The position numbers and the translations under genes are program-made. From an uncultured beta proteobacterium (GTDB lineage Bacteria; Pseudomonadota; Gammaproteobacteria; Burkholderiales; Rhodocyclaceae), in contig CAIWVX010000479.1 of NCBI GenBank assembly GCA_903916205.1, positions 1 to 19,160 on the forward strand: a DNA stretch of 19,160 bases, written 5' to 3'. A model generated the notes under the pieces. The model was not told the origin of the DNA. It worked only from the letters and a program-made list of their open reading frames with translations, and made no database searches. Position 1 is the first letter of the stretch; each line of letters opens with the position of its first letter. Positions 5,899-17,078 of the stretch are shown piece by piece.

Positions 5899-6506
5899 TG
5901 CTATTCACTGACCTGACCGGTCTGGCAGGCATCGCTTTAGCGTTAGCCTTGCTGTGCCAACGGACGCTTAGCTATTTGCCCTTTCCCCAGCGCACGTTGG
6001 CAATGGTTTCCAGCGCTGTTTTCGTGCTGTTGCTGGTGCCTTTCTCAAGCTTGCCACCCGCCGCCTACGTGCGCGGCATGGTCGGTGATTTAAGCGTTAC
6101 TTCGTTGATGCTGTTAAGTTGCCGCTCAATGCGGCAAGCCAGCATTCTGCCCTCGCTCGATACCACTCAACGTTGGTGCGGATTAGGGCTGCTGGCTCTG
6201 GCTAGCGCCGTGCTTTACCCTCTAGCGCTCGGCGTCACACCCTATGATCCCTATCGCTGGGGCTATGGCGATTTCTGGTTTCTTGGCGCATTGCTGAGTC
6301 TGTCGCTGGCGGCTTCAGCGTTACGCCTAATGCAGGTTGCCGCGACGATCAGCCTTGCCGTTCTGGCTTGGGCCGTCGGCTGGTCTGAGTCAAACAATCT
6401 TTGGGATTATCTACTTGACCCGATGCTGGCGATTTATGCGTATGGTGGTTTGATAACGATGATCTTTTCACGCTGGCGCTCAGGGCGTTCGCTCGGTTTT
6501 AAGTAA
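5895..6506 (+). CDS. Small polytopic inner-membrane protein of unknown function
   Basis: I do not recognise a named family. The product is about 203 residues, with roughly six hydrophobic segments separated by short loops. A notable loop is rich in aromatic residues and Pro (PYDPYRWGYGDFWFLGALL), and the C-terminus is short and basic. I place the start at ATG 5895, four bases inside the sialidase stop and behind a good ribosome binding site (AAAGGAAA, 5879-5886). The frame is open further upstream to 5736, but that part overlaps the sialidase and looks like a shadow. Tight coupling to the sialidase-like gene suggests a shared task in envelope glycan handling, but no activity can be assigned. 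Confidence 0.75.
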   Translation: MMLFTDLTGLAGIALALALLCQRTLSYLPFPQRTLAMVSSAVFVLLLVPFSSLPPAAYVRGMVGDLSVTSLMLLSCRSMRQASILPSLDTTQRWCGLGLLALASAVLYPLALGVTPYDPYRWGYGDFWFLGALLSLSLAASALRLMQVAATISLAVLAWAVGWSESNNLWDYLLDPMLAIYAYGGLITMIFSRWRSGRSLGFK

Positions 6507-6808
6507 AGCGGATTCGATTGATCAACGCTGTTTGTTGAAGTTTTTTTCGTTGGAACCATAACCAACTTTCTGGCCGCATCCACGACCAGCGAGTGCCAAG
6601 CCGCTATTGATCGCGGCAATCGACTAGTGGAGGCCCTTGTGCCACACTGATACACTACCGCTCTCGAATTAAACCGATCAGGTGTCATTTTAATGAAGCG
6701 TTGCGTTATCGGTCTCCGCCGCACCCCGCTGGCAACCAAATTTCTAGTCGTCCTAGATTAAAAAACGAACAGCCGCCCTCTGATCAATACACAGAAATAA
6801 CGGAACCC
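6507..6808. other. Intergenic region between the glycan cassette and the restriction operon
   Basis: About 300 bases without a convincing gene. It holds the possible terminator near its left end. The rest has only short open stretches in each frame; one of about 31 codons ending at the TGA near 6649-6651 has no start and no recognisable family. The hsdM frame is open upstream as far as a TTG at 6701, but this extension of 36 codons does not look like HsdM. No strong promoter for hsdM could be picked out by eye. The region may be the left boundary of the island; I saw no flanking direct repeat or tRNA. Confidence 0.5.
6522..6547 (+). terminator. Possible weak intrinsic terminator after the glycan cassette
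   Basis: A short A/T-rich stem (TCAAC 6522-6526 with GTTGA 6534-6538, seven-base loop) is followed after two bases by seven T residues (6541-6547). Its position, 16 bases after the stop of the last cassette gene, is right for a terminator. The stem is only five base pairs, so it may be weak or not used. Confidence 0.4.
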
Positions 6809-9394
6809 ATGTCCAGCGCCAAACTTACCCTCTCCCGTCTCGCCAGCTTGTTGTTGACCGCCTGCGACGATCTGCGCGGCAATATGGATGCCAGCGAATA
6901 CAAGGAATACATCTTTGGCATGTTGTTCCTCAAGCGTGCCAGCGATCTGTTCGATCAACGTCGTCAAGAGATCAAGCAGCAAGGCCAAGCCGATGGCCTG
7001 AATGAAGCCGACATCTCGGCGTTACTTGAAGACGAAGATCAATACTCGGGCAAATATTTCTTTGTCCCCGAACGCGCTCGATGGAACGAGGCTTGGACTG
7101 AGCACAAAACCGACAAAGACGGCAAGATCGAGACAGTGAATCACCCCGCCCTCAAACACATCAAAGAAAACGTCGGCACCCTTCTCAACACAGCGCTGGA
7201 AGACTTGGAAGAAGCCAATCCCGAAGCCTTGCAGGACGTGCTCAAACACATCAACTTCAACAAAAAAATCGGCCAGAACACGTTAGACGACGACACGCTG
7301 ATTAATTTCATCCAAAACTTCGAGAAAATTCCGCTCAAGGATGACGATTTTGAATTTCCTGATCTACTCGGTGCCGCCTACGAATGGTTGATCAAGCACT
7401 TTGCCGATTCGGCGGGCAAAAAAGCGGGCGAGTTTTACACCCCGGCCGAAGTGGTACGCATTTGCGTCGAAATTTGCGACCCGAAAGAAAACATGACGGT
7501 TTACGACCCGACTGTAGGCTCCGGCGGCATGTTGATTCAGGCCCGTGATTACCTACGCGAATGCGGTGCCAACGCCACCAATCTGCCGCTTTACGGTCAG
7601 GAAAAAATGGGCACCACCTGGTCGATCTGCAAGATGAACATGTTGTTGCACGGCATTTCACATGCCGTCATCGCCCAGCAGGACACCCTGCGCGAGCCGC
7701 AGCATCAGGCCGACGATGGCAACCTCATGCGCTTTGACCGCGTGCTGGCCAATCCGCCGTTCAGTCAGAACTACATCAAAAAAGAAATCAAGCACCCCGG
7801 TCGCTTCCCGGTGTGGATGCCGGAAAAAGGCAAAAAAGCCGATCTGATGTTTGTGCAGCACATGCTCGCCGTGCTCAAATCCGATGGACGACTCGCCACG
7901 GTCATGCCGCACGGCGTGCTGTTTCGTGGCGGAGAAGAGCGCGAAGCCCGGCAATATTTTATCGACAAGGGCTACCTCGAAGCCGTGATCGGCCTGCCCA
8001 GCAATCTGTTTTACGGCACCGGCATTCCGGCCTGCATTCTGGTGCTCAACAAGGCCGGTACGGCAGAGCGTCTGGGCGAAAACGGCGGCGTGCTGTTCAT
8101 CAACGCCGACCGCGAATACCGTGAAGGCAAGGCTCAGAACCACCTGCGCCCGGAAGATATCGACAAGATCGTACATGCCTACCGTGCCGGTCAGAACATT
8201 CCGGCCTACGCTCGTCGCGTGCCGCTAAGTGAAATCAAGGCCGAAGACTACAACTGCAACATCCGGCGCTATGTCGACAACGCCCCGCCGCCAGAACCGC
8301 ACGATGTACGCGCCCATCTGCATGGCGGTGTGCCGGTCAGCGAGATCAATGCCCTCGAACACTTCTGGCAGAACTATGCTGGTTTGCGCGACAGCAGCTT
8401 TACCAACCGTGATTCTCGCGCCGACAAAAATCAAAAAATCCCCTACGCCGACTTCGCCACCGCACTGCAAGACAAGCGCGCCATCGCCGAACACGTCAAC
8501 ACCCACCCCGGCGTGATCCAACGCCAGAGCAAATTCATGACGGCGCTAGAAACCTGGTGGCAGCAACACCTGCCCATTGTCGAGGCGCTGGCACCGGATG
8601 CCGAAAATCAGCACGGCAAAACCAACAACGTCTACCGGATGCGCGCCACGCTGCTCGACAGCATCGAGCGCACCTTTGCCAGACAGCATTTGCTGACCCG
8701 CTATCAGGTGCGCGGAGCCTTTGCCAACTATTACAAACTGTTGGCCGCCGACTTCAAGTCCATCGCCGCCAGCGGCTGGGGGCCGGAGCTGATCCCGGAC
8801 GAAGAAATTCTGCAAAGCCAGTTCCCCGAAGTGTTAGCCGAACTGGAGCAACAGCACAGCCGACTGGCTGAGTTGCAAGCCCTGTTTGCCGCCGCCAGCG
8901 AAGAAGATTTTGAAGACAGCGACGACACCGGCGTACTCCCCGCCGATGACGTCAAAGCGCACAAGGCCGCCCTGAAAGAAGCCCGAGGTAGGATGAAACT
9001 CGCCAAACGCGACCCCGGTCTGGGCGATTGGCAGAATTTTCAACGTGAAGCCGAACGCATCGAAGCGCAACTGGCCCGCCACAAAGCGCTGGAAGACGAA
9101 GCGAAAAACCTCAAAGCCCTGATTAAAACCACCGAAAAAAGCCGCGACGAATTGGTGGAAAAAGCCCGCCAAAAAATCAGCAAGGACGAGGCCCGCGTGG
9201 TCATTGTTGAACGCTTGGGCCAAGAGTTGTTCAACAGCTACCGCCAATACCTGCGCGCCGACCAACGGGCTTGCATCGCCGCGATTGAAAACCTGTGGGG
9301 TAAATATGCGGTTACGGCCAAGCAGATTGAGGCTGGGCGGGATAAGGCGGCGCGAGCGTTGCAGGCGTATTTGGTGGAGTTGGGGTATGAGTGA
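6809..9394 (+). CDS. hsdM: Type I restriction-modification system methyltransferase subunit (HsdM)
   Basis: HsdM is the S-adenosylmethionine-dependent adenine-N6 methyltransferase subunit that works with HsdS. The N-terminal HsdM_N helical domain is clear (about residues 5-165, including [19 protein letters not shown]). The Rossmann methyltransferase domain follows, with motif I DPTVGSGG (233-240) and the catalytic N6A motif IV NPPF (315-318). The length, 861 residues, is much greater than the classic enterobacterial HsdM of about 530: a C-terminal region of some 300 residues is rich in charged residues and probably coiled coil (about 690-850). Motif I has T-V where A-C is common. I chose ATG 6809, where homology to HsdM begins. 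The end overlaps hsdS by 8 bases. The gene looks intact. Confidence 0.95.
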
Positions 9395-10706
9395 GACTGC
9401 TGGCGGAGGCTGGGCTGCGTCCAGCTTTGGTGCTCTTTGCCTTCGCATTGTGAATGGAGGCACTCCCGATACAGGCATTGCCGCTTATTGGAATGGTGAA
9501 ACGCCATGGATCACCGGTGCGGATTTTACGCCAAGCGGCATTGGCGAATTCCGACGTTATGTGTCGGATGCAGGAATAAGCAGTAGTGCTACTTCGGTTG
9601 TTAAGCAAGGCAATCTCTTAGTTGTTACTCGCACAGGCGTTGGTAAGCTTGCTATCGCTCCTTGTGACATTGCCATCAGCCAAGATATTACTGGCGTCTA
9701 TATCAATTCAGCGAAGGCGGAAACAGCTTTTTTTTACTACCTGCTTAGTCGGGAACTCGATGAGCTAAAGAAACTTAATCAAGGCACCAGCATTAACGGA
9801 ATTGTCCGTTCCGATCTTGAAAAACATATTGTTCGCTTTCCTGCTGCAAAGGCAGTGCAACAAAAAATTGCCTCCATTCTCACTGCCGCCGACACGGCTA
9901 TCGAAAAAACCGAAGCCCTGATCGCCAAATACCAGCAGATCAAGGCCGGTCTGATGCACGACCTGTTCACCCGTGGCGTACTGCCCAACGGCCAATTGCG
10001 CCCACCACACAGCGAAGCGCCAGAGCTGTATCAGGAAACGGCATTTGGGTGGATTCCGAAGGAGTGGGAGTTGTCTGGACTCGCAGAAAAGTCGCGCCCA
10101 GGAACCAGTTGGATACGAACAGGCCCATTTGGCTCCGCGCTAAAAGGTGAGCATTGGGTAGAACAAGGCTATCCAGTTATCACCATCGGTGCGCTTGGCG
10201 TAGGTGACTTTATCGAAGAGGGGCTGTTGTATATCGGCAGCAAGGATGCTGCACGACTAAGTGACTTTCAACTGAGAGCCGGTGATGTCGTTTTCTCCCG
10301 TGTTGCTGACGTGGGCCGCTCCGTGGTGATACGCGAAGAACAAAGTGGTTGGATCATGTCGTCTAACCTGATGCGTATAGCTCTCAGCGAATCTGTTGCC
10401 CGACCAGATTATTTGCAAATGCAGTTGTCAGATGACTTTCGAGTGAAGGCGCAGATAAGGGCAAAGGTTACCGGCGGCGGACGTGAAGTGGCCAATAGTG
10501 CCGTCTTGGGGCAGTTGCGATTTGCATGGCCATCGCTGGTAGAGCAAGATCAGATTATCAATTTGGCTAGCGGAATTCTTGTTCAGTTACGTGCAGAGCA
10601 GAGGAAAGTAGAAAAACTCAACCGACAAAAACTCGGCCTGATGCAAGACCTGCTCACCGGCAAAGTTCAGGTGCAAATCGATGAGTCGGAGGCCGCCTAT
10701 GCCTGA
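9387..10706 (+). CDS. hsdS: Type I restriction-modification specificity subunit (HsdS)
   Basis: HsdS chooses the DNA target for both methylation and cleavage. The 439-residue protein shows the standard two-half design. The first target-recognition domain covers about residues 5-155 ([20 protein letters not shown] near its start) and ends in a conserved helix around [22 protein letters not shown] linker reading [21 protein letters not shown] follows, then a second target-recognition domain (about 225-385) and a C-terminal helix ending [14 protein letters not shown]. The two halves are unlike each other, so the target should be a bipartite asymmetric sequence. ATG 9387 overlaps the hsdM stop by 8 bases and has GGTGGAG (9373-9379) as ribosome binding site. 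No frameshift was seen. Confidence 0.93.
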
Positions 10707-11178
10707 CTACAGTGGCCGCCTGAATCCCTAGAAGGCACTGATCTTTCGCCTCGTACACCGCGATGCATTGCCGTGGATTCTGGAGCCTGGACTGCACTGC
10801 AAGAACTCGCCGGTGCAGGCCCCTGATTATGTGAACATCGGCAATACTGAATTGATCGACAAGCGTTCACGGCGCATGGTGTATATGCCGTCGGGTGGCA
10901 ATCTCAGTGATTAATGGGTCAATTACTACAGCGATCTAAACCAATTGACGGAGATTGACTGGCCGATTTTCCAGCGCCGGGATTTCAGCCGTGACGCCGA
11001 CGATCCGCGAAAAATCGAGCGTTACCAAACTGAAGCATGGATGCATCAGTATGTTCCGGTCGAGGCACTGATGGGTGTCGTTTGTTACACTGACCCGCTA
11101 AAATTACATATTGAAGCGCAAGTACAGGCGCGTGGCTTAGGGTTGCGGATTCATACCAAACGAGGGTGGTACTTCTGA
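10699..11178 (+). pseudogene. darT: Inactivated DarT toxin gene (DNA ADP-ribosyltransferase, DUF4433)
   Basis: DarT attaches ADP-ribose from NAD+ to thymidine in single-stranded DNA; DarG counters it. Reading from ATG 10699 (GGAGG ribosome binding site at 10688-10692, 8-base overlap with hsdS) gives [10 protein letters not shown], a TAG stop at codon 11 (10729-10731), then KALIFRLVHRDALPWILE and GLHCKNSPVQAPDYVNIGN, ending at NLSD with a TAA (10912-10914). The same frame resumes with WVNYYSDLNQLTEIDWPIFQ and runs through RYQTEAW to the family C-terminus RGWYF at 11178. From memory of DarT proteins of about 210 residues, some 55 codons are missing exactly at the second stop, which removes a central part of the catalytic domain. 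The glutamate of the YQxEA element remains. No functional toxin can be made. Confidence 0.88.
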
Positions 11179-11291
11179 TGATCACATATATACAAGGGAA
11201 TCTCTTGGAGGCGAAAGCAGAAGCACTCGTCAACACGGTAAATACCGTCGGTGTGATGGACAAGGGTATTGCGCTGATGTTCAATGGCTAA
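11178..11291 (+). pseudogene. darG: Truncated DarG antitoxin gene (macrodomain start only)
   Basis: DarG is a macrodomain ADP-ribosyl glycohydrolase that removes the mark made by DarT. Here ATG 11178 overlaps the last base of the darT stop (TGATG), with GAGGG at 11162-11166 as ribosome binding site. It encodes a very typical DarG beginning ([20 protein letters not shown], then [13 protein letters not shown]). Similarity ends after codon 35, and a TAA follows at 11289-11291, so only 37 codons remain. The normal continuation after GIAL (a GIALQFK-type sequence) is absent, and the downstream gene starts at 11284, inside this remnant. The macrodomain is thus cut after its first conserved loop and cannot fold. 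Confidence 0.88.
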
Positions 11292-13104
11292 CAAACTACC
11301 CATCAACCTCAACGATCTGCTGCGCCAACGCACGGTAGAAGGCGAGCGCATCGAATACAAGGTCGGCTGGAATCCTGATGCCATCATTCGCACCTTGTGT
11401 GCCTTCGCCAACGATTTTGAAAACCTCGGGGGTGGTTATGTGGTAATCGGCCAGGATTGCGATGCCCATGGTCAACCGCTGTTCCCACCGGTGGGGCTGG
11501 CAGAGAATCAGCTCGACAAGATTCAGCAAAAATTACTGGCACTCTGTCAGTTGATCCAACCACCTTACTTTCCGGCGCTGAGTGTGCAGGACGTCGAGGG
11601 CCGAAAACTGATTGTGCTGCAAGCACCAGGCGGCATGCACCGCCCGTACAAGGCGGCAGCTTCGGTGAGTTCCAAGCACAAGACCTGGCATTACTATATT
11701 CGCCGTTACAGCAGTACGGTCGAGGCCAAGGGCGAAACTGAACAGGAGCTGCTTAGCCTGACGGCGCAGGTACCGTGGGACGACCGCTTTAATTCGCAGG
11801 CGCAGATCAGTGATTTGTCCAAACCACTGATGCTGGAGTATCTGCGCGAGGTTGGCAGTGGCTTGGCCGACGTGGCGTCCGAGATGTCGGTCGAGGATTT
11901 GGGGCGACAGATGAATCTGGTAGGCGGGCCGAGCGAGTCGCCGTGGCCAAAAAATGTTGGTCTGTTGTTTTTCAACGAAGCACCGGATCGATTCTTCCCC
12001 TATACGCAGATTGATGTGGTGTGGTTTCCTGAGGGGGCGGGCGGCGACCGTTTTGATGAAAAGATTTTCAAAGGGCCGCTGGCGCGTATGACTCGGGATG
12101 CGCTGAGCTTCATCGAGCGCAATTACCTGATTGAGACCGTGCTCAAACACCCGGATCGCGCCGAGGCCACGCGGGTTTGGAACTTCCCCTACGTGGCCAT
12201 CGAAGAAGCGCTGGTCAATGCCGTCTATCATCGCGCTTATGAGTTGCGCGAACCCATCGAGGTGCGTATTAGCCATGATGAGTTGGTGATTTTGAGCTTT
12301 CCGGGGCCGGATCGATCAATCAAGCCCGAGGATTTTGAGGCCGGCCGTGCGATTAGCCGCCGTTACCGCAACCGGCGGATTGGCGAGTTTCTGAAAGAAC
12401 TCGACTTGACCGAAGGCCGCTCAACGGGCGTGCCAAAGATGCTGCGGAGCATGGCCGCCAATGGTTCGCCTGCACCCCGTTTTGAAACCGACGATAACCG
12501 GCTGGCCTGCCTTATCCGGCTACCTGTTCATCCGCTGGCAAAACAGCCTACCGATGAAGTCACCGCCCCCTCCACCATGGAAGTCACCATGGAAGTCACC
12601 ATGGAAGTCACGGCCTTGCTTCGGGTTGTTGAAGGTGAAATGCGTCGTCAAGCGCTTCAGGCGGCCATGGGACTGAAGAATGTAGACCACTTTAGTAAGG
12701 CTTACATAGTGCCGGCCATCGCCGCAGGTTGCCTAGAAATGACGCTGCCCGATCAGCCAAACAGTCGCCTACAACGCTACCGATTGACCGCCAAGGGCCG
12801 AAAATGGCTAGCGTCCCAGGCTGAAGGCAAAACACCATCCATGGAAGTCACCATGGAAGTCGCCATGGAAGTCACGGCCTTGCTTCGGGTTGTTGAAGGT
12901 GAAATGCGTCGTCAAGCGCTTCAGGCGGCCATGGGACTAAAGAATGCAGATCACTTTCGTAAGGCTTACATGGTGCCGGCCATCGCCGCAGGTTGCCTAG
13001 AAATGACGCTGCCCGATCAGCCAAACAGTCGCCTGCAACGCTACCGATTGACCGCCAAGGGCCGAAACTGGCTAGCGTCCCAGGCTGAAGGGAAAACACA
13101 ATGA
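11284..13104 (+). CDS. AlbA_2 (Schlafen-like) / GHKL ATPase-domain protein with duplicated C-terminal winged helix
   Basis: This 606-residue protein is of the COG2865-like family often found beside restriction systems. An N-terminal AlbA_2/Schlafen-type putative nucleic-acid-binding domain spans about residues 12-140 ([30 protein letters not shown]). A HATPase_c_4 GHKL-type domain lies at about 295-410, with the N-box [12 protein letters not shown] and the RNRRIGEFL segment; a clean DxGxG box is not seen (SFPGPD in its place). The C-terminus consists of two nearly identical 88-residue units (431-518 and 519-606), each a short MEV(T/A) run plus a winged-helix-like domain. The N-terminus looks complete, but the sequence before ATG 11284 is a darG remnant and no good ribosome binding site is visible, so translation may depend on coupling to that remnant. 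The stop overlaps hsdR by ATGA. The role is unknown; defence or regulation of the operon is inferred. Confidence 0.85.
12574..12609 (+). repeat. 12-bp microsatellite, first array (3 units)
   Basis: Three exact tandem copies of ACCATGGAAGTC at 12574, 12586 and 12598 encode Thr-Met-Glu-Val three times. The unit length is a multiple of three, so gain or loss changes linker length without shifting the frame. Similar low-complexity EVT/QVT linkers precede winged helices in related proteins. Confidence 0.95.
12574..12837 (+). repeat. 264-bp tandem duplication, copy 1
   Basis: First copy of a 264-base in-frame unit (88 codons) made of the 12-bp microsatellite and the winged-helix-like domain. From 12610 onward it aligns without gaps to 12874 onward, with about eight base differences in some 227 bases by eye. 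It ends ASQAEGKTP and passes directly into the second microsatellite. Confidence 0.95.
12838..13100 (+). repeat. 264-bp tandem duplication, copy 2
   Basis: Second copy of the unit, headed by three slightly varied 12-bp units (12838-12873, the middle one exact and the others with one changed base at their start). It ends at the end of the gene. Its last bases carry GAAGGGA (13087-13093), a good ribosome binding site seven bases before the hsdR ATG; copy 1 has GAAGGCA at the same place, so the C-to-G change strengthens the site in copy 2. Confidence 0.95.
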
Positions 13105-16100
13105 GCGAATACAACGAGGTCGAGCAACCCTTCCTGCAACAGCTTGAATCGCTGGGCTGGACGACAGTCGATCAGGGGATGGGCATCCCGCAGGACGCTA
13201 CCCTCAGCTTGCGCGCCCACTTCCGCCAGTGGCTGCTGCCCGAGGTGTTCGATAGGGCAGTACGCAGAATCAACCGCACTGACGACGGTCGCCAATGGCT
13301 GACCAACCGGCAGCTGGAAGACCTGCGCGGCCAACTGCTGCACCAGCCAAACCGCACGCTGCTGGAAGCTAACGAAGCCGTGCAAGCTTTGCTGTTCAAG
13401 GCACAGGTCGAGGTGAATGAGCTAACTGGCGAATCCGATCCGGTCGTGCGTCTAATCGATTTTCGTAGCCCGGAAAACAATCAGTTCCACGCCATTAACC
13501 AATTTCGCATCGATACGCCGGGCAGTGTTAAAGACTTCATCATTCCCGACATTGTACTGTTCGTGAATGGCATCCCGCTGTGTGTGGTCGAGTGCAAAAA
13601 AGGCTCGGAAACCTGCGCCAATCCGATGCACGAAGCCTTTATCCAGTTACAGCGTTATATGCGGCGGCGCAAGGCAACAGAAACGGAAACGGCGGGTTTG
13701 AAGGAAGGTGAGCCGCGCCTGTTCTACAGCAACCTGCTGTTGATTCGCAGCACAGGCACTCTCGCCGACTACGGCACCATTACGTCGATTAACGAGCACT
13801 ACTATGCCTGGAAGACGCTCTACCCAGAAGATGATGCGGCCCGTGAAGGCTTGAATGCCCAGCAGCAGCTCATTGCCGGAATGCTGACGCGCCCTAACCT
13901 GCTGCAAATCCTGCGTACCAGTTCGGTGTTCATGAATAGCGATGGCGGGTCTCGGGTGAAAGTCGTGTGCCGCTACCAGCAATTTCGCGCCGCCAACAAG
14001 ATCATCGAGCGCTTGCAGACGGGCGGCACGGCGATGGAACGCAGCGGTGTGGTATGGCATACCCAGGGTTCGGGCAAATCGCTGACGATGGTGTTTCTCG
14101 CCCGGATGTTACGCACCAACCGTCATCTTTCTGACTACAAGATCGTGCTGGTTAATGATCGGCAGAATCTTGAAGAACAACTGGGTGAAACGGCAACGCT
14201 GATCGGCGGCCGCGTGAATGTGATCGAGAATCGGCAAGGTTTGCGCCAGCATTTGTCCACCGATAGCTCGGACATCAACATGGTGATGGTGCATAAGTTC
14301 CAGGAGCACAAGCAGACCCTGAGCAACACGGTAGCCGAAGCGCTTGGCACCTATCTGGCGATGCCGGCGAGCAAAACCTTCGGGGTGGTTAATACGTCGG
14401 AGCGGATCATCCTGATGATCGACGAGGCGCACCGTACGCAGAGTTCTGATCTCGGCGACAACCTGTTTGAAGCTTTCCCGAATGCCACGCGTGTGGCCTT
14501 TACCGGCACGCCACTGATCACTGACCGTCATGGCGAGAAGAAAACCCACAAGCGCTTCGGCGAGTACATCGACACCTACCGGCTGATGGACGCGGTGAAC
14601 GATGGGGCGACGTTACAGATCTTGTACGAAGGAAAAACAGCCGACAGCGCACTCAATGAAAAGCACGCCTTCGATACGGCGTTTGAAGACCTGTTCAAGG
14701 ATCGCAGCGCAGAAGATCTGTTGGCGATCAAGAAGAAATATGGCGCAACAGGCGATATTCTCGAAGCCAAAAATCGCATCAACGCCATCGCCAAGGATAT
14801 GGTCACTCACTACGTTGACCACATTCTGCCCAATGGTTTCAAGGCGCAGGTGGTGTGCCATTCCAAGCTGGCCTGTATTCGCTACCAAAATGGCATTAAG
14901 GCCGCACTCGCGGAACGCATTGAGCAGGAAGAGGCCAAGACCACGCCGGATACAAGCTTGCTCAAGCGGCTGCGCTTCCTCAAAACAGCCGTGGTGATTT
15001 CGTCGGACGGTACCAATGAGGCGGCCTATATCACGCACGCCCGCAAACAGGCCGCACGAATGAATGCGGTCGACAACTTCTGCCGCAATTTCGACTTAGA
15101 GGATGCGGACAAAGAATACACCGGCATCGCCTTCCTGATCGTTTGTGACATGCTGCTGACCGGTTTCGATGCACCTATCGAACAGGTCATGTACATCGAC
15201 AAAAAACTGCGCGAGCACACCCTGCTGCAGGCAATTGCCCGTACCAACCGGGTCAAAAAAGGTAAGCAGCGCGGCTATATCGTCGATTACATCGGACTAG
15301 CCAACCATCTGACCGATGCACTAACCCTTTACGCGGCCAGCGATGAATTACAAGAATTGCACAATGGGATGCAGAACATCACCTCGGAACTGCCGGTGCT
15401 GGAAGAGCGCTATCAGCGCCTATTGCAACATTTCACGGCGCGGGGTGTGAAGCATATTAAGGCCTTCGTTACCGGCGACCTGCCAAATCTGGAGACCGAG
15501 GCGAGCGTAGTGAACGAGGCGGTCAAAGCCTTAAAGGATGAGAAACAGCGGGCGGACTTCGAGGTCTATTTGAAGAAATTTCTGATGAGCATGGACGTGA
15601 TTTTGCCGCATACCTCGGCCCAGCCCTACCGTGTGCCAGCCAAACGATTCGGCTACATCCTGCAAGTCACAAAGGAACGCTATAAAGACACCAGCCTCAA
15701 TTTGGGCAATGCCGGTGAGAAAGTGAAAGCGCTAATCAATGAACACCTAATCAGCCTGGGCATCAATCCCAAGGTTGAACCCGTCGAACTGCTGGCCGAT
15801 GATTTTCTCGAGAAACTGGCGGCGCACGCCGGCAAAAACGCTGAAGCCAAAGCCAGCGAGATGGAGCACGCCATCCGCAAGCACTGCACGGTGCACCACG
15901 ACGAAGACCCCGCTTTTTACAAAAACCTCTCGGAAAAAGTGGATGCCCTGATCAGTAAACATCACGACGAATGGGAACTGTTGGCAGAGAAGTTGGCAAA
16001 ATTGCGCACCGATGCCATTGCGGGTCGCCAAAAGGGTGAAGAAGGCATGAGCAAAGAGGCCACGACCTTCTACGAACACATCGTTCAGGTTGGCTTCCCC

Positions 16101-16370
16101 GGCGCTTCCATTACGGAGGGGGATAAAGAAAAATTCAAGGAACTGATGGAAACCACAGTGGAAATTTTGCAAGAAACCATCACCAGTATCGACTTCTGGC
16201 AGAATCCTGACAAACAAAAACGTGTTCGAGGTCTAATCAAGACCGAGATCACCAAAGCGGGCATTGAGGCACTCAAGAAAAACCGTGAGCGTGTTGCTGT
16301 CGAGATCATGAAACTCGCCAAGAACCGCCACGATAAATTGATCCGCGCAGTGCGGGCGGGGGGCGCGTAA
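13101..16370 (+). CDS. hsdR: Type I restriction endonuclease motor and nuclease subunit (HsdR)
   Basis: HsdR translocates DNA with ATP and cleaves unmethylated targets. The 1089-residue protein has an N-terminal PD-(D/E)xK nuclease (P149-D150, E164, K166 in VECKKG). A superfamily 2 motor follows: Walker A in HTQGSGKS (about 320-327), DEAH box at 441-444 (IDEAHRTQ), motif III FTGTP (about 467) and motif VI around QAIARTNR (about 713). A long helical C-terminal part after about residue 760 probably docks on the methylase. All key residues are present. The ATG lies inside the stop of the AlbA_2-type gene and is preceded by GAAGGGA, which supports this start. The next gene begins at the base after its stop codon. 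Confidence 0.96.
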   Translation: MSEYNEVEQPFLQQLESLGWTTVDQGMGIPQDATLSLRAHFRQWLLPEVFDRAVRRINRTDDGRQWLTNRQLEDLRGQLLHQPNRTLLEANEAVQALLFKAQVEVNELTGESDPVVRLIDFRSPENNQFHAINQFRIDTPGSVKDFIIPDIVLFVNGIPLCVVECKKGSETCANPMHEAFIQLQRYMRRRKATETETAGLKEGEPRLFYSNLLLIRSTGTLADYGTITSINEHYYAWKTLYPEDDAAREGLNAQQQLIAGMLTRPNLLQILRTSSVFMNSDGGSRVKVVCRYQQFRAANKIIERLQTGGTAMERSGVVWHTQGSGKSLTMVFLARMLRTNRHLSDYKIVLVNDRQNLEEQLGETATLIGGRVNVIENRQGLRQHLSTDSSDINMVMVHKFQEHKQTLSNTVAEALGTYLAMPASKTFGVVNTSERIILMIDEAHRTQSSDLGDNLFEAFPNATRVAFTGTPLITDRHGEKKTHKRFGEYIDTYRLMDAVNDGATLQILYEGKTADSALNEKHAFDTAFEDLFKDRSAEDLLAIKKKYGATGDILEAKNRINAIAKDMVTHYVDHILPNGFKAQVVCHSKLACIRYQNGIKAALAERIEQEEAKTTPDTSLLKRLRFLKTAVVISSDGTNEAAYITHARKQAARMNAVDNFCRNFDLEDADKEYTGIAFLIVCDMLLTGFDAPIEQVMYIDKKLREHTLLQAIARTNRVKKGKQRGYIVDYIGLANHLTDALTLYAASDELQELHNGMQNITSELPVLEERYQRLLQHFTARGVKHIKAFVTGDLPNLETEASVVNEAVKALKDEKQRADFEVYLKKFLMSMDVILPHTSAQPYRVPAKRFGYILQVTKERYKDTSLNLGNAGEKVKALINEHLISLGINPKVEPVELLADDFLEKLAAHAGKNAEAKASEMEHAIRKHCTVHHDEDPAFYKNLSEKVDALISKHHDEWELLAEKLAKLRTDAIAGRQKGEEGMSKEATTFYEHIVQVGFPGASITEGDKEKFKELMETTVEILQETITSIDFWQNPDKQKRVRGLIKTEITKAGIEALKKNRERVAVEIMKLAKNRHDKLIRAVRAGGA

Positions 16371-17078
16371 ATGCAACTGCGCCAAATTCGAGATATTGAA
16401 TACCAACTCTTGCCCGGTTCGGATCGCCAAACAACTGACATCGTAATTGAGCGCAGTGGCGTGATCACGGTGCGTCCACCGATAAAAATGACGCCAGAAC
16501 AGGCCGACGAAACGGTTCTCAGCAAACGGCTGTGGATTTACCGCAACCTAGCCGAGTGGCGTGATCTCAATGCCACGCATGTTAACCGGGAGTGGGTGAG
16601 CGGCGAGTCGTTTCTGTATTTGGGCAGCCGCTATCGACTGCAATTAGTCAGAGAGCAAGAAGAGTCTCTCAAGCTTAAAGATGGACGCTTCTGCTTGTTG
16701 CGTTCAATTGTTGAAGCGGGTGGCAATAAAGCCGCCCATGAGGCTTTTGAATCCTTCTACCACGACAAGGGGCTGCTCCGAATCAAGAAACGGGTGGCGC
16801 ACTTTGCCGGCAAGATCGGCGTTTCTGCGGGTTCTGTTCAGATCAAGGAACTTGGTTACCGCTGGGCATCATGCCTGAAAAATGGTGATCTACATTTTCA
16901 TTGGAAATGCCTGATGGCCCCTCTGACCGTCATCGATTACATCGTGGTTCATGAATTGTGTCACCTTCATCACCGTGACCACTCGGATGCCTTCTGGAAT
17001 GAAGTGGACAAGGTGATGCCCGATTATCGGGAACGCAAGAAGTGGTTGCGGGTTCGCGGTGCAGAGTTGGATCTTTGA
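16371..17078 (+). CDS. YgjP-like (SprT/WLM-type) zinc metallopeptidase, restriction-associated
   Basis: A 235-residue protein of the YgjP/DUF45 metallopeptidase family, which often sits at the end of type I restriction operons. The C-terminal half carries the zinc-binding HELCH motif (H194, E195, H198) followed by a third histidine in HSDAFW (H204), as in SprT-like peptidases, and just before it the family pattern YRWASCLKNGDLHFHW (about 164-179). The N-terminal half is the usual beta-rich YgjP part. The ATG directly follows the hsdR TAA with a G-rich ribosome binding site (16354-16365), so the two are co-translated. The substrate is unknown; turnover of the restriction complex is a possible role but not shown. 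The family call is firm. Confidence 0.9.
   Translation: MQLRQIRDIEYQLLPGSDRQTTDIVIERSGVITVRPPIKMTPEQADETVLSKRLWIYRNLAEWRDLNATHVNREWVSGESFLYLGSRYRLQLVREQEESLKLKDGRFCLLRSIVEAGGNKAAHEAFESFYHDKGLLRIKKRVAHFAGKIGVSAGSVQIKELGYRWASCLKNGDLHFHWKCLMAPLTVIDYIVVHELCHLHHRDHSDAFWNEVDKVMPDYRERKKWLRVRGAELDL

Follow-up and report, generated by a model that had tools for sequence, protein, structure and literature searches.

Between the specificity and the restriction gene of a type I restriction operon we found the broken remains of a DarTG toxin–antitoxin module, followed directly by an AlbA_2 (Schlafen-type) gene that is the present occupant of the place. The operon lies in the window, as we call the whole stretch of 19,160 nucleotides analysed here, which is one entire contig. 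Judged from the DNA itself, positions 10699–11291 almost certainly represent a dead DarTG remnant. The two pieces of darT and the piece of darG (darG′) were each searched separately against Pfam, NCBIfam and PADLOC profiles. They matched DarT and DarG significantly and lie in darT–darG order on the same strand (Table 1), and the match of the remnants to the two families is far beyond chance. The first-pass annotation had proposed that a DarTG module was destroyed inside a type I restriction operon with both toxin and antidote broken, and the separate matches (E from 6e-8 to 1e-21) bore this out.

Table 1. Genes and gene remnants of the operon, in window coordinates, with the profile matches on which each assignment rests
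Feature	Position	Strand	Evidence
hsdM, type I methyltransferase, open	6809..9394	+	N6_Mtase E 4.9e-100; PADLOC MTase_I 2e-246
hsdS, specificity subunit, open	9387..10706	+	Methylase_S E 1.6e-20
darT remnant, whole frame	10699..11178	+	two stops, about 57 central codons gone; profile matches
DarT N-terminal piece (profile positions 1-58 of 201)	10732..10911	+	PF14487 E 6.4e-8; NF048013 4.8e-12; PADLOC 4e-14
DarT C-terminal piece (profile positions 115-201 of 201)	10915..11175	+	PF14487 E 6.9e-13; NF048013 1.2e-21; PADLOC 6.4e-19
darG remnant, first 35-36 residues then stop	11178..11291	+	11178-11288: NF048014 (1-35 of 338) E 5e-16; PADLOC DarG 8.1e-17
AlbA_2 (Schlafen-type) gene, open, present slot occupant	11284..13104	+	SLFN_AlbA_2 E 7.8e-12; HATPase_c_4 region E 7.2e-11; two Fic-like_C winged-helix copies E 1.2e-44 (Pfam)
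hsdR, restriction subunit, open	13101..16370	+	HSDR_N E 2.1e-29; PADLOC REase_I 6.7e-118
ygjP-type metallopeptidase gene, downstream partner, open	16371..17078	+	YgjP-like E 1.8e-55

By their families, the open genes hsdM, hsdS and hsdR make up a predicted type I restriction–modification set. The order on one strand is hsdM–hsdS–darT–darG–hsdR–metallopeptidase gene, with AlbA_2 added between darG′ and hsdR. The junctions overlap in operon style, as the first reading of the sequence had described: hsdM and hsdS share 8 nt of start and stop (9387–9394, form ATGAGTGA), the darT start at 10699 overlaps the hsdS stop (10704–10706) by 8 nt (form ATGCCTGA), the darT frame ends at 11176–11178 and shares its last nucleotide with the darG start (11178), and the darG′ stop at 11289–11291 lies 8 nt into the AlbA_2 gene starting at 11284 (form ATGGCTAA). 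The hsdR start precedes the AlbA_2 end by 4 nt. The 3′ end of AlbA_2 (12575–13102) contains a 264-bp in-frame tandem duplication, 96% identical and with short 12-bp repeats inside, which doubles the Fic-like_C winged-helix domain; the predicted protein has 606 residues, compared with 514–537 in uninterrupted relatives (ORF length). A gene for the YgjP-type metallopeptidase was matched in nearly all loci of the window's HsdR family, the exception (L143) being a short contig.

No full-length DarT ADP-ribosyltransferase can be read from the darT frame. The nonsense codon proposed for codon 11 was found as TAG at 10729–10731, and a second in-frame stop, TAA at 10912–10914, which had gone unmentioned, marks the internal deletion. 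The deletion itself, put earlier at about 55 codons, is real and amounts to 57 codons when aligned with 216-residue relatives such as those of L069 and L090. The 77-residue ORF that an ordinary annotation might call also exists (10945–11178) and is merely the tail of darT. Its one match in the protein collection (P0005, 134 aa, 79% identical) lies on a contig of 1,264 bases. A search of the named genome collection with the 87-residue darT piece gave 22 pattern matches, none confirmed as a relative. On the minus strand, ORFs of 99 and 86 residues run over the remnant region.

The antitoxin gene ends early. As the first-pass annotation had it, darG′ consists of 37 codons; 35–36 of them match DarG, which is about 340–360 residues long in relatives, so that positions 1–35 of 338 are left of the macrodomain and C-terminal domain of a complete DarG. 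Pfam returned only RuvA_N for this short piece, at E 0.01 and under its cut-off. A search for a second copy of DarT or DarG elsewhere in the window's genome, which is 79% complete, gave no match. The start codon of darG′ is kept and no stop precedes 11289, and since its overlap with AlbA_2 has the same 8-nt form as the hsdM/hsdS and hsdS/darT overlaps, the remnant may still mediate a coupling of translation. It is nevertheless improbable that the remnants were retained for function, with the 37-codon mini-ORF feeding ribosomes to AlbA_2 by translational coupling: the stop is already contained in the AlbA_2 start, read in one of its two other frames, so that about 1 junction in 3 would overlap in this way by chance; the overlap may be luck, and no close copy of the remnant for a selection test was found in the genome and protein collections.

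A strain chimera in a draft genome of short contigs could in principle produce such a scar. The assembly comprises 501 contigs with 5% contamination, and the genome and protein collections yielded no second, independent assembly with this scar. An artefact of this kind is very improbable, however, because apart from the lesions the frame can be read, the join is clean, every flanking gene is open, and like broken occupants occur in unrelated assemblies, including the single-contig genome of locus L181 from the same family (see below).

We compared the place between hsdS and hsdR, the slot, in related operons. An alignment of four HsdR proteins served as the query against the named genome collection, and the best 80 of the 143 stretches that encoded relatives were kept; L113 (identical to L112) and L151 (no HsdR start) were dropped and the window, L072 and L181 were added, giving 81 loci. 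Both the hsdS end and the hsdR start, and therefore a complete slot, are visible in 66 of them. Some contigs recur under different names: that of L069 is identical to those of L113 (listed as Oxalobacteraceae) and L112 (listed as Cellvibrionaceae), and that of L065 to that of L165 (listed as Sulfuricellaceae). L069 and L065 come from genomes of the window's order, which is therefore probably Burkholderiales in the GTDB sense. The slot was empty in 18 of the 66 loci and occupied in 48. Uninterrupted darT and darG were present in 12 (L072, L090, L092, L093, L096, L098, L102, L103, L132, L136, L146 and L147), in agreement with the earlier statement that DarTG occurs inside restriction operons, which the available text of two papers also reports (PMC5179494, PMC12255303). 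All 12 uninterrupted darT genes in these slots are adjoined by an uninterrupted darG, and one further slot (L104) holds a darT with a stop beside an open darG. Uninterrupted AlbA_2 genes of the window's family were present in seven slots (the window, L101, L105, L131, L138, L140 and L159). None of the 66 held both darTG and AlbA_2 uninterrupted, compared with about 1.3 expected under independence, and the absence alone therefore proves nothing; mutual exclusion of the two as a rule was rejected as a conclusion, the numbers being too small and 0/66 not significant.

A second, shorter DarT-family gene was observed directly before darT–darG in L072 (8693–9265), L098 (5184–5753) and L147 (7657–8226), with a single darG for the two toxin-family genes. 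The shorter gene is also present in L188 and, in two pieces, in L187.

The occupants of the slots are diverse. We compared 30 hand-picked slot proteins with Pfam and 10 with PADLOC, a survey and not a census, in which 7 of the 30 had no Pfam match at E 0.001 and 3 of the 10 no PADLOC match. The families recovered were DUF1016/YhcG nucleases (L094, L131), RhuM (L114, L118), AbiEi with AbiEii and a SIR2-domain protein with a Dsr1-like neighbour (all L119), KwaB (L131), an AbiL-like ATPase (L140), a zeta-toxin-like protein (L141), a protein with an MqsA-type domain (L146), KilA-N (L123), DUF6932 (L100, L148) and other SLFN_AlbA_2 proteins (L126, L130, L135, L139). These families indicate that many occupants are defence or toxin–antitoxin genes. 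Several cargo genes share one slot in L131 and L140.

Start/stop overlaps of exactly 8 nt recur in this operon family. Such an overlap joins hsdS to hsdR in 15 of the 18 empty slots (4 nt, 1 nt and 71 nt in the other three), hsdS to darT in 8 of 11 slots that begin with darT, the window among them, and hsdS to AlbA_2 at 4 of 5 such junctions. At the other side, the AlbA_2 end overlaps hsdR by 4 nt also in L091, L101, L105, L131 and L138; the overlap is 8 nt in L159, and in L140 another gene lies between. The window thus has a left edge like that of a darTG slot (hsdS/darT, 8 nt) and a right edge like that of an AlbA_2 slot (AlbA_2/hsdR, 4 nt).

Broken genes were recognisable in 10 of the 48 occupied slots (the window, L181, L096, L104, L097, L148, L119, L091, L072 and L153), a count that covers only pieces detectable with the few queries used. 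The mirror of the window is the slot of L096, from Hydrogenophaga: darT and darG are intact there, and between darG and hsdR lies a piece of AlbA_2 of 69 residues. Among 61 genomes from the window's GTDB family, the best HsdR match outside the window's own genome (85%) came from that of L181; the slot of L181 holds a darT piece of 37 codons, a zeta-toxin-like gene, an ORF of 58 residues and DarG from residue 145 onwards, and its sister on the HsdR tree, L090, has an intact darTG. Elsewhere, L097 retains darT codons 3–37, L148 has a stand-alone DarG macrodomain (residues 1–149; 7952–8395) directly after hsdS, with no darT found, L119 has a broken 5′ piece of AlbA_2 and L091 an AlbA_2 with stops. 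Two loci outside the 66 slots, L099 and L145, contain further broken pieces.

Fragments of the 5′ part of a second hsdR were seen upstream of or among the cargo in L072 (8258–8620), L153 (4503–4766) and L099 (8182–8394), as if cargo and a new hsdR had arrived together. L181 (8692–10072 of the reverse complement) and L145 (1096–2497) share a run of three genes: a zeta-toxin-like gene, then a short ORF, then a C-terminal part of DarG standing alone. The zeta-toxin-like gene of L181 has homologues in L141 and L145 (73–75% identical) that match Pfam Zeta_toxin at E 1.8e-8 and 5.9e-8, and the DarG C-terminal part of this type matched SocA_Panacea only at E 0.072. Since the same run of three genes occurs in two distant operons, the DarG C-terminal part may be the partner of another toxin.

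We favour, with some confidence, an origin of the scar by replacement of darTG by AlbA_2 and not by deletion. A DarTG module once occupied the slot between hsdS and hsdR, and darT, now dead through the two stops and the central deletion, would have died first. DarG is the protection against DarT, and darT should therefore have been dead before darG was broken; once the toxin gene was dead, the antitoxin would no longer have been needed. The slot of L104, with its stopped darT and open darG, is a present-day example of the expected intermediate. In Mycobacterium tuberculosis screens, as given in the available text of PMC5179494, the antitoxin gene was essential and the toxin gene dispensable. 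An AlbA_2 gene of a different hsd operon would then have entered by recombination, through homology towards hsdR, and replaced the 3′ part of darG. Nine tenths of darG is gone, and AlbA_2 stands directly on the break, where its first 8 nt overlap the end of darG′. What would now be at work is a simple type I system that has an AlbA_2 accessory protein but no arm for DNA ADP-ribosylation. Along hsdM, AlbA_2, hsdR and ygjP we detected no clear switch of nearest relative that would mark an incoming tract (100-codon blocks, 12 loci), a point against replacement. The nearest hsdR overall is that of L089 (81.1% at the DNA level), which was first or tied in 9 of 11 blocks; L089 is also an AlbA_2 operon and is without hsdM.

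The scar could also have formed by decay in place, from an operon that once had intact darT, darG and AlbA_2, in which darTG alone decayed and one deletion ran from darG codon 36 to the AlbA_2 start. The slot of L096, where an AlbA_2 piece directly follows darT and darG in exactly that order, makes an ancestor with both possible, and L131 and L140 show that several cargo genes can be held together. We nonetheless regard decay in place as rather unlikely. The break falls exactly at the AlbA_2 start codon, for which a deletion needs luck or selection, and the intact order hsdM–hsdS–darT–darG–AlbA_2–hsdR, suggested earlier as one to be looked for in close relatives, was seen in none of the 66 slots. 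A scan of 398 genomes of the phylum gave 16 DarG matches in 15 of them, one being the L069 contig again, and none had AlbA_2 beside it within flanks of up to 1.5 kb, less at contig ends. The first-pass annotation had seen here a combined defence unit that lost one arm. The adjoining modules of L096 speak for that view; uninterrupted darTG and uninterrupted AlbA_2 are alternative occupants in our sample, however, and a unit that lost one arm is for this reason less supported than an occupant that was replaced.

Replacement of darTG by AlbA_2 would be one event in a frequent turnover of the slot. On a FastTree tree of HsdR from the 66 loci, in which 21 of the 63 inner branches were weak, we scored each slot as empty, darTG, AlbA_2 or other (L104 and L096 as darTG, L091 as AlbA_2). 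The four states required 26 changes, compared with a mean of 33.3 for shuffled labels, and none of 200 shuffles was as low, which indicates that the cargo is clustered but often changing. The 8 tips with AlbA_2, the window and L091 among them, required 8 changes, of which well-supported branches force at least 6; shuffled labels required 7.7 on average. AlbA_2 thus shows no clustering, nor is it scattered more widely than labels placed by shuffling. The sample accordingly lent no support to the idea that AlbA_2 follows the lineage of its HsdR. We read the hsdS–hsdR slot as a turnover-prone site of module replacement. Tentatively, and as a single proposal, we suggest that the hsdS–hsdR junction of this HsdR family may act as a plug-in socket in which one defence gene is exchanged for another, with the recombination anchored in the hsd genes on either side; newcomers would keep the 8-nt or 4-nt overlaps and so preserve chain translation, toxins would die before their antidotes, and pieces of old occupants (darT, darG, AlbA_2 and even 5′ hsdR) would stay as a record.

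Parts of this picture are already in print. DarTG in type I operons, its hsdS–hsdR place and the idea of a hotspot are in the available text of PMC5179494 and PMC12255303. The RRDM island of enteropathogenic Escherichia coli consists, in that portion of PMC12255303, of RptR, a type I restriction–modification system, DarTG2 and an M48-family peptidase; as in the window, darTG lies in the hsdS–hsdR place and a metallopeptidase gene follows hsdR, and its authors call the site a potential recombination hotspot. Its darTG is described there as intact and active, whereas that of the window is dead and has AlbA_2 in its place. The TAGCTA sites that are repeated in front of the RRDM operon have no counterpart here: none lies between 6507 and the hsdM start (6507–6808), and the whole window contains one TAGCTA, at 5969, with a chance mean of 1.06. 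The DarTG systems presented in the accessible part of PMC5179494 belong to the same gene families and the same kind of operon as ours and are intact, whereas the window holds remnants. In the hsd loci of Campylobacter jejuni, rlo genes (R-linked ORFs) are variable extra genes between hsdR and hsdS, as here; those loci have another operon order and other cargo, and remnants of earlier occupants are not described in the available portion of PMC5183652, a paper that cites the work on these genes. TgvAB in a type I operon of Vibrio cholerae (PMC11411939) and PrrC in EcoprrI (PMC12707154) are likewise second defences embedded in type I operons, but by the text available of each they are intact and of other families. 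Literature searches, with subscription papers and preprints mostly outside their range, returned no report on fossil occupants of the hsdS–hsdR slot and none on AlbA_2 with hsdR and restriction–modification. What looks new here is the dead occupant beside its apparent successor, together with the mirror case of L096.

For annotation, the remnant accounts for a gap in which one would otherwise call a hypothetical protein of 77 residues, and it cautions against counting the window's genome as DarTG-positive. Catalogues of the defence modules inside restriction operons are being compiled, but the fate of such modules over time is rarely visible. A dead previous occupant, a present one and a mirror case are direct snapshots of the turnover of the slot, and they make it countable whether toxins die before their antitoxins and which modules displace which.
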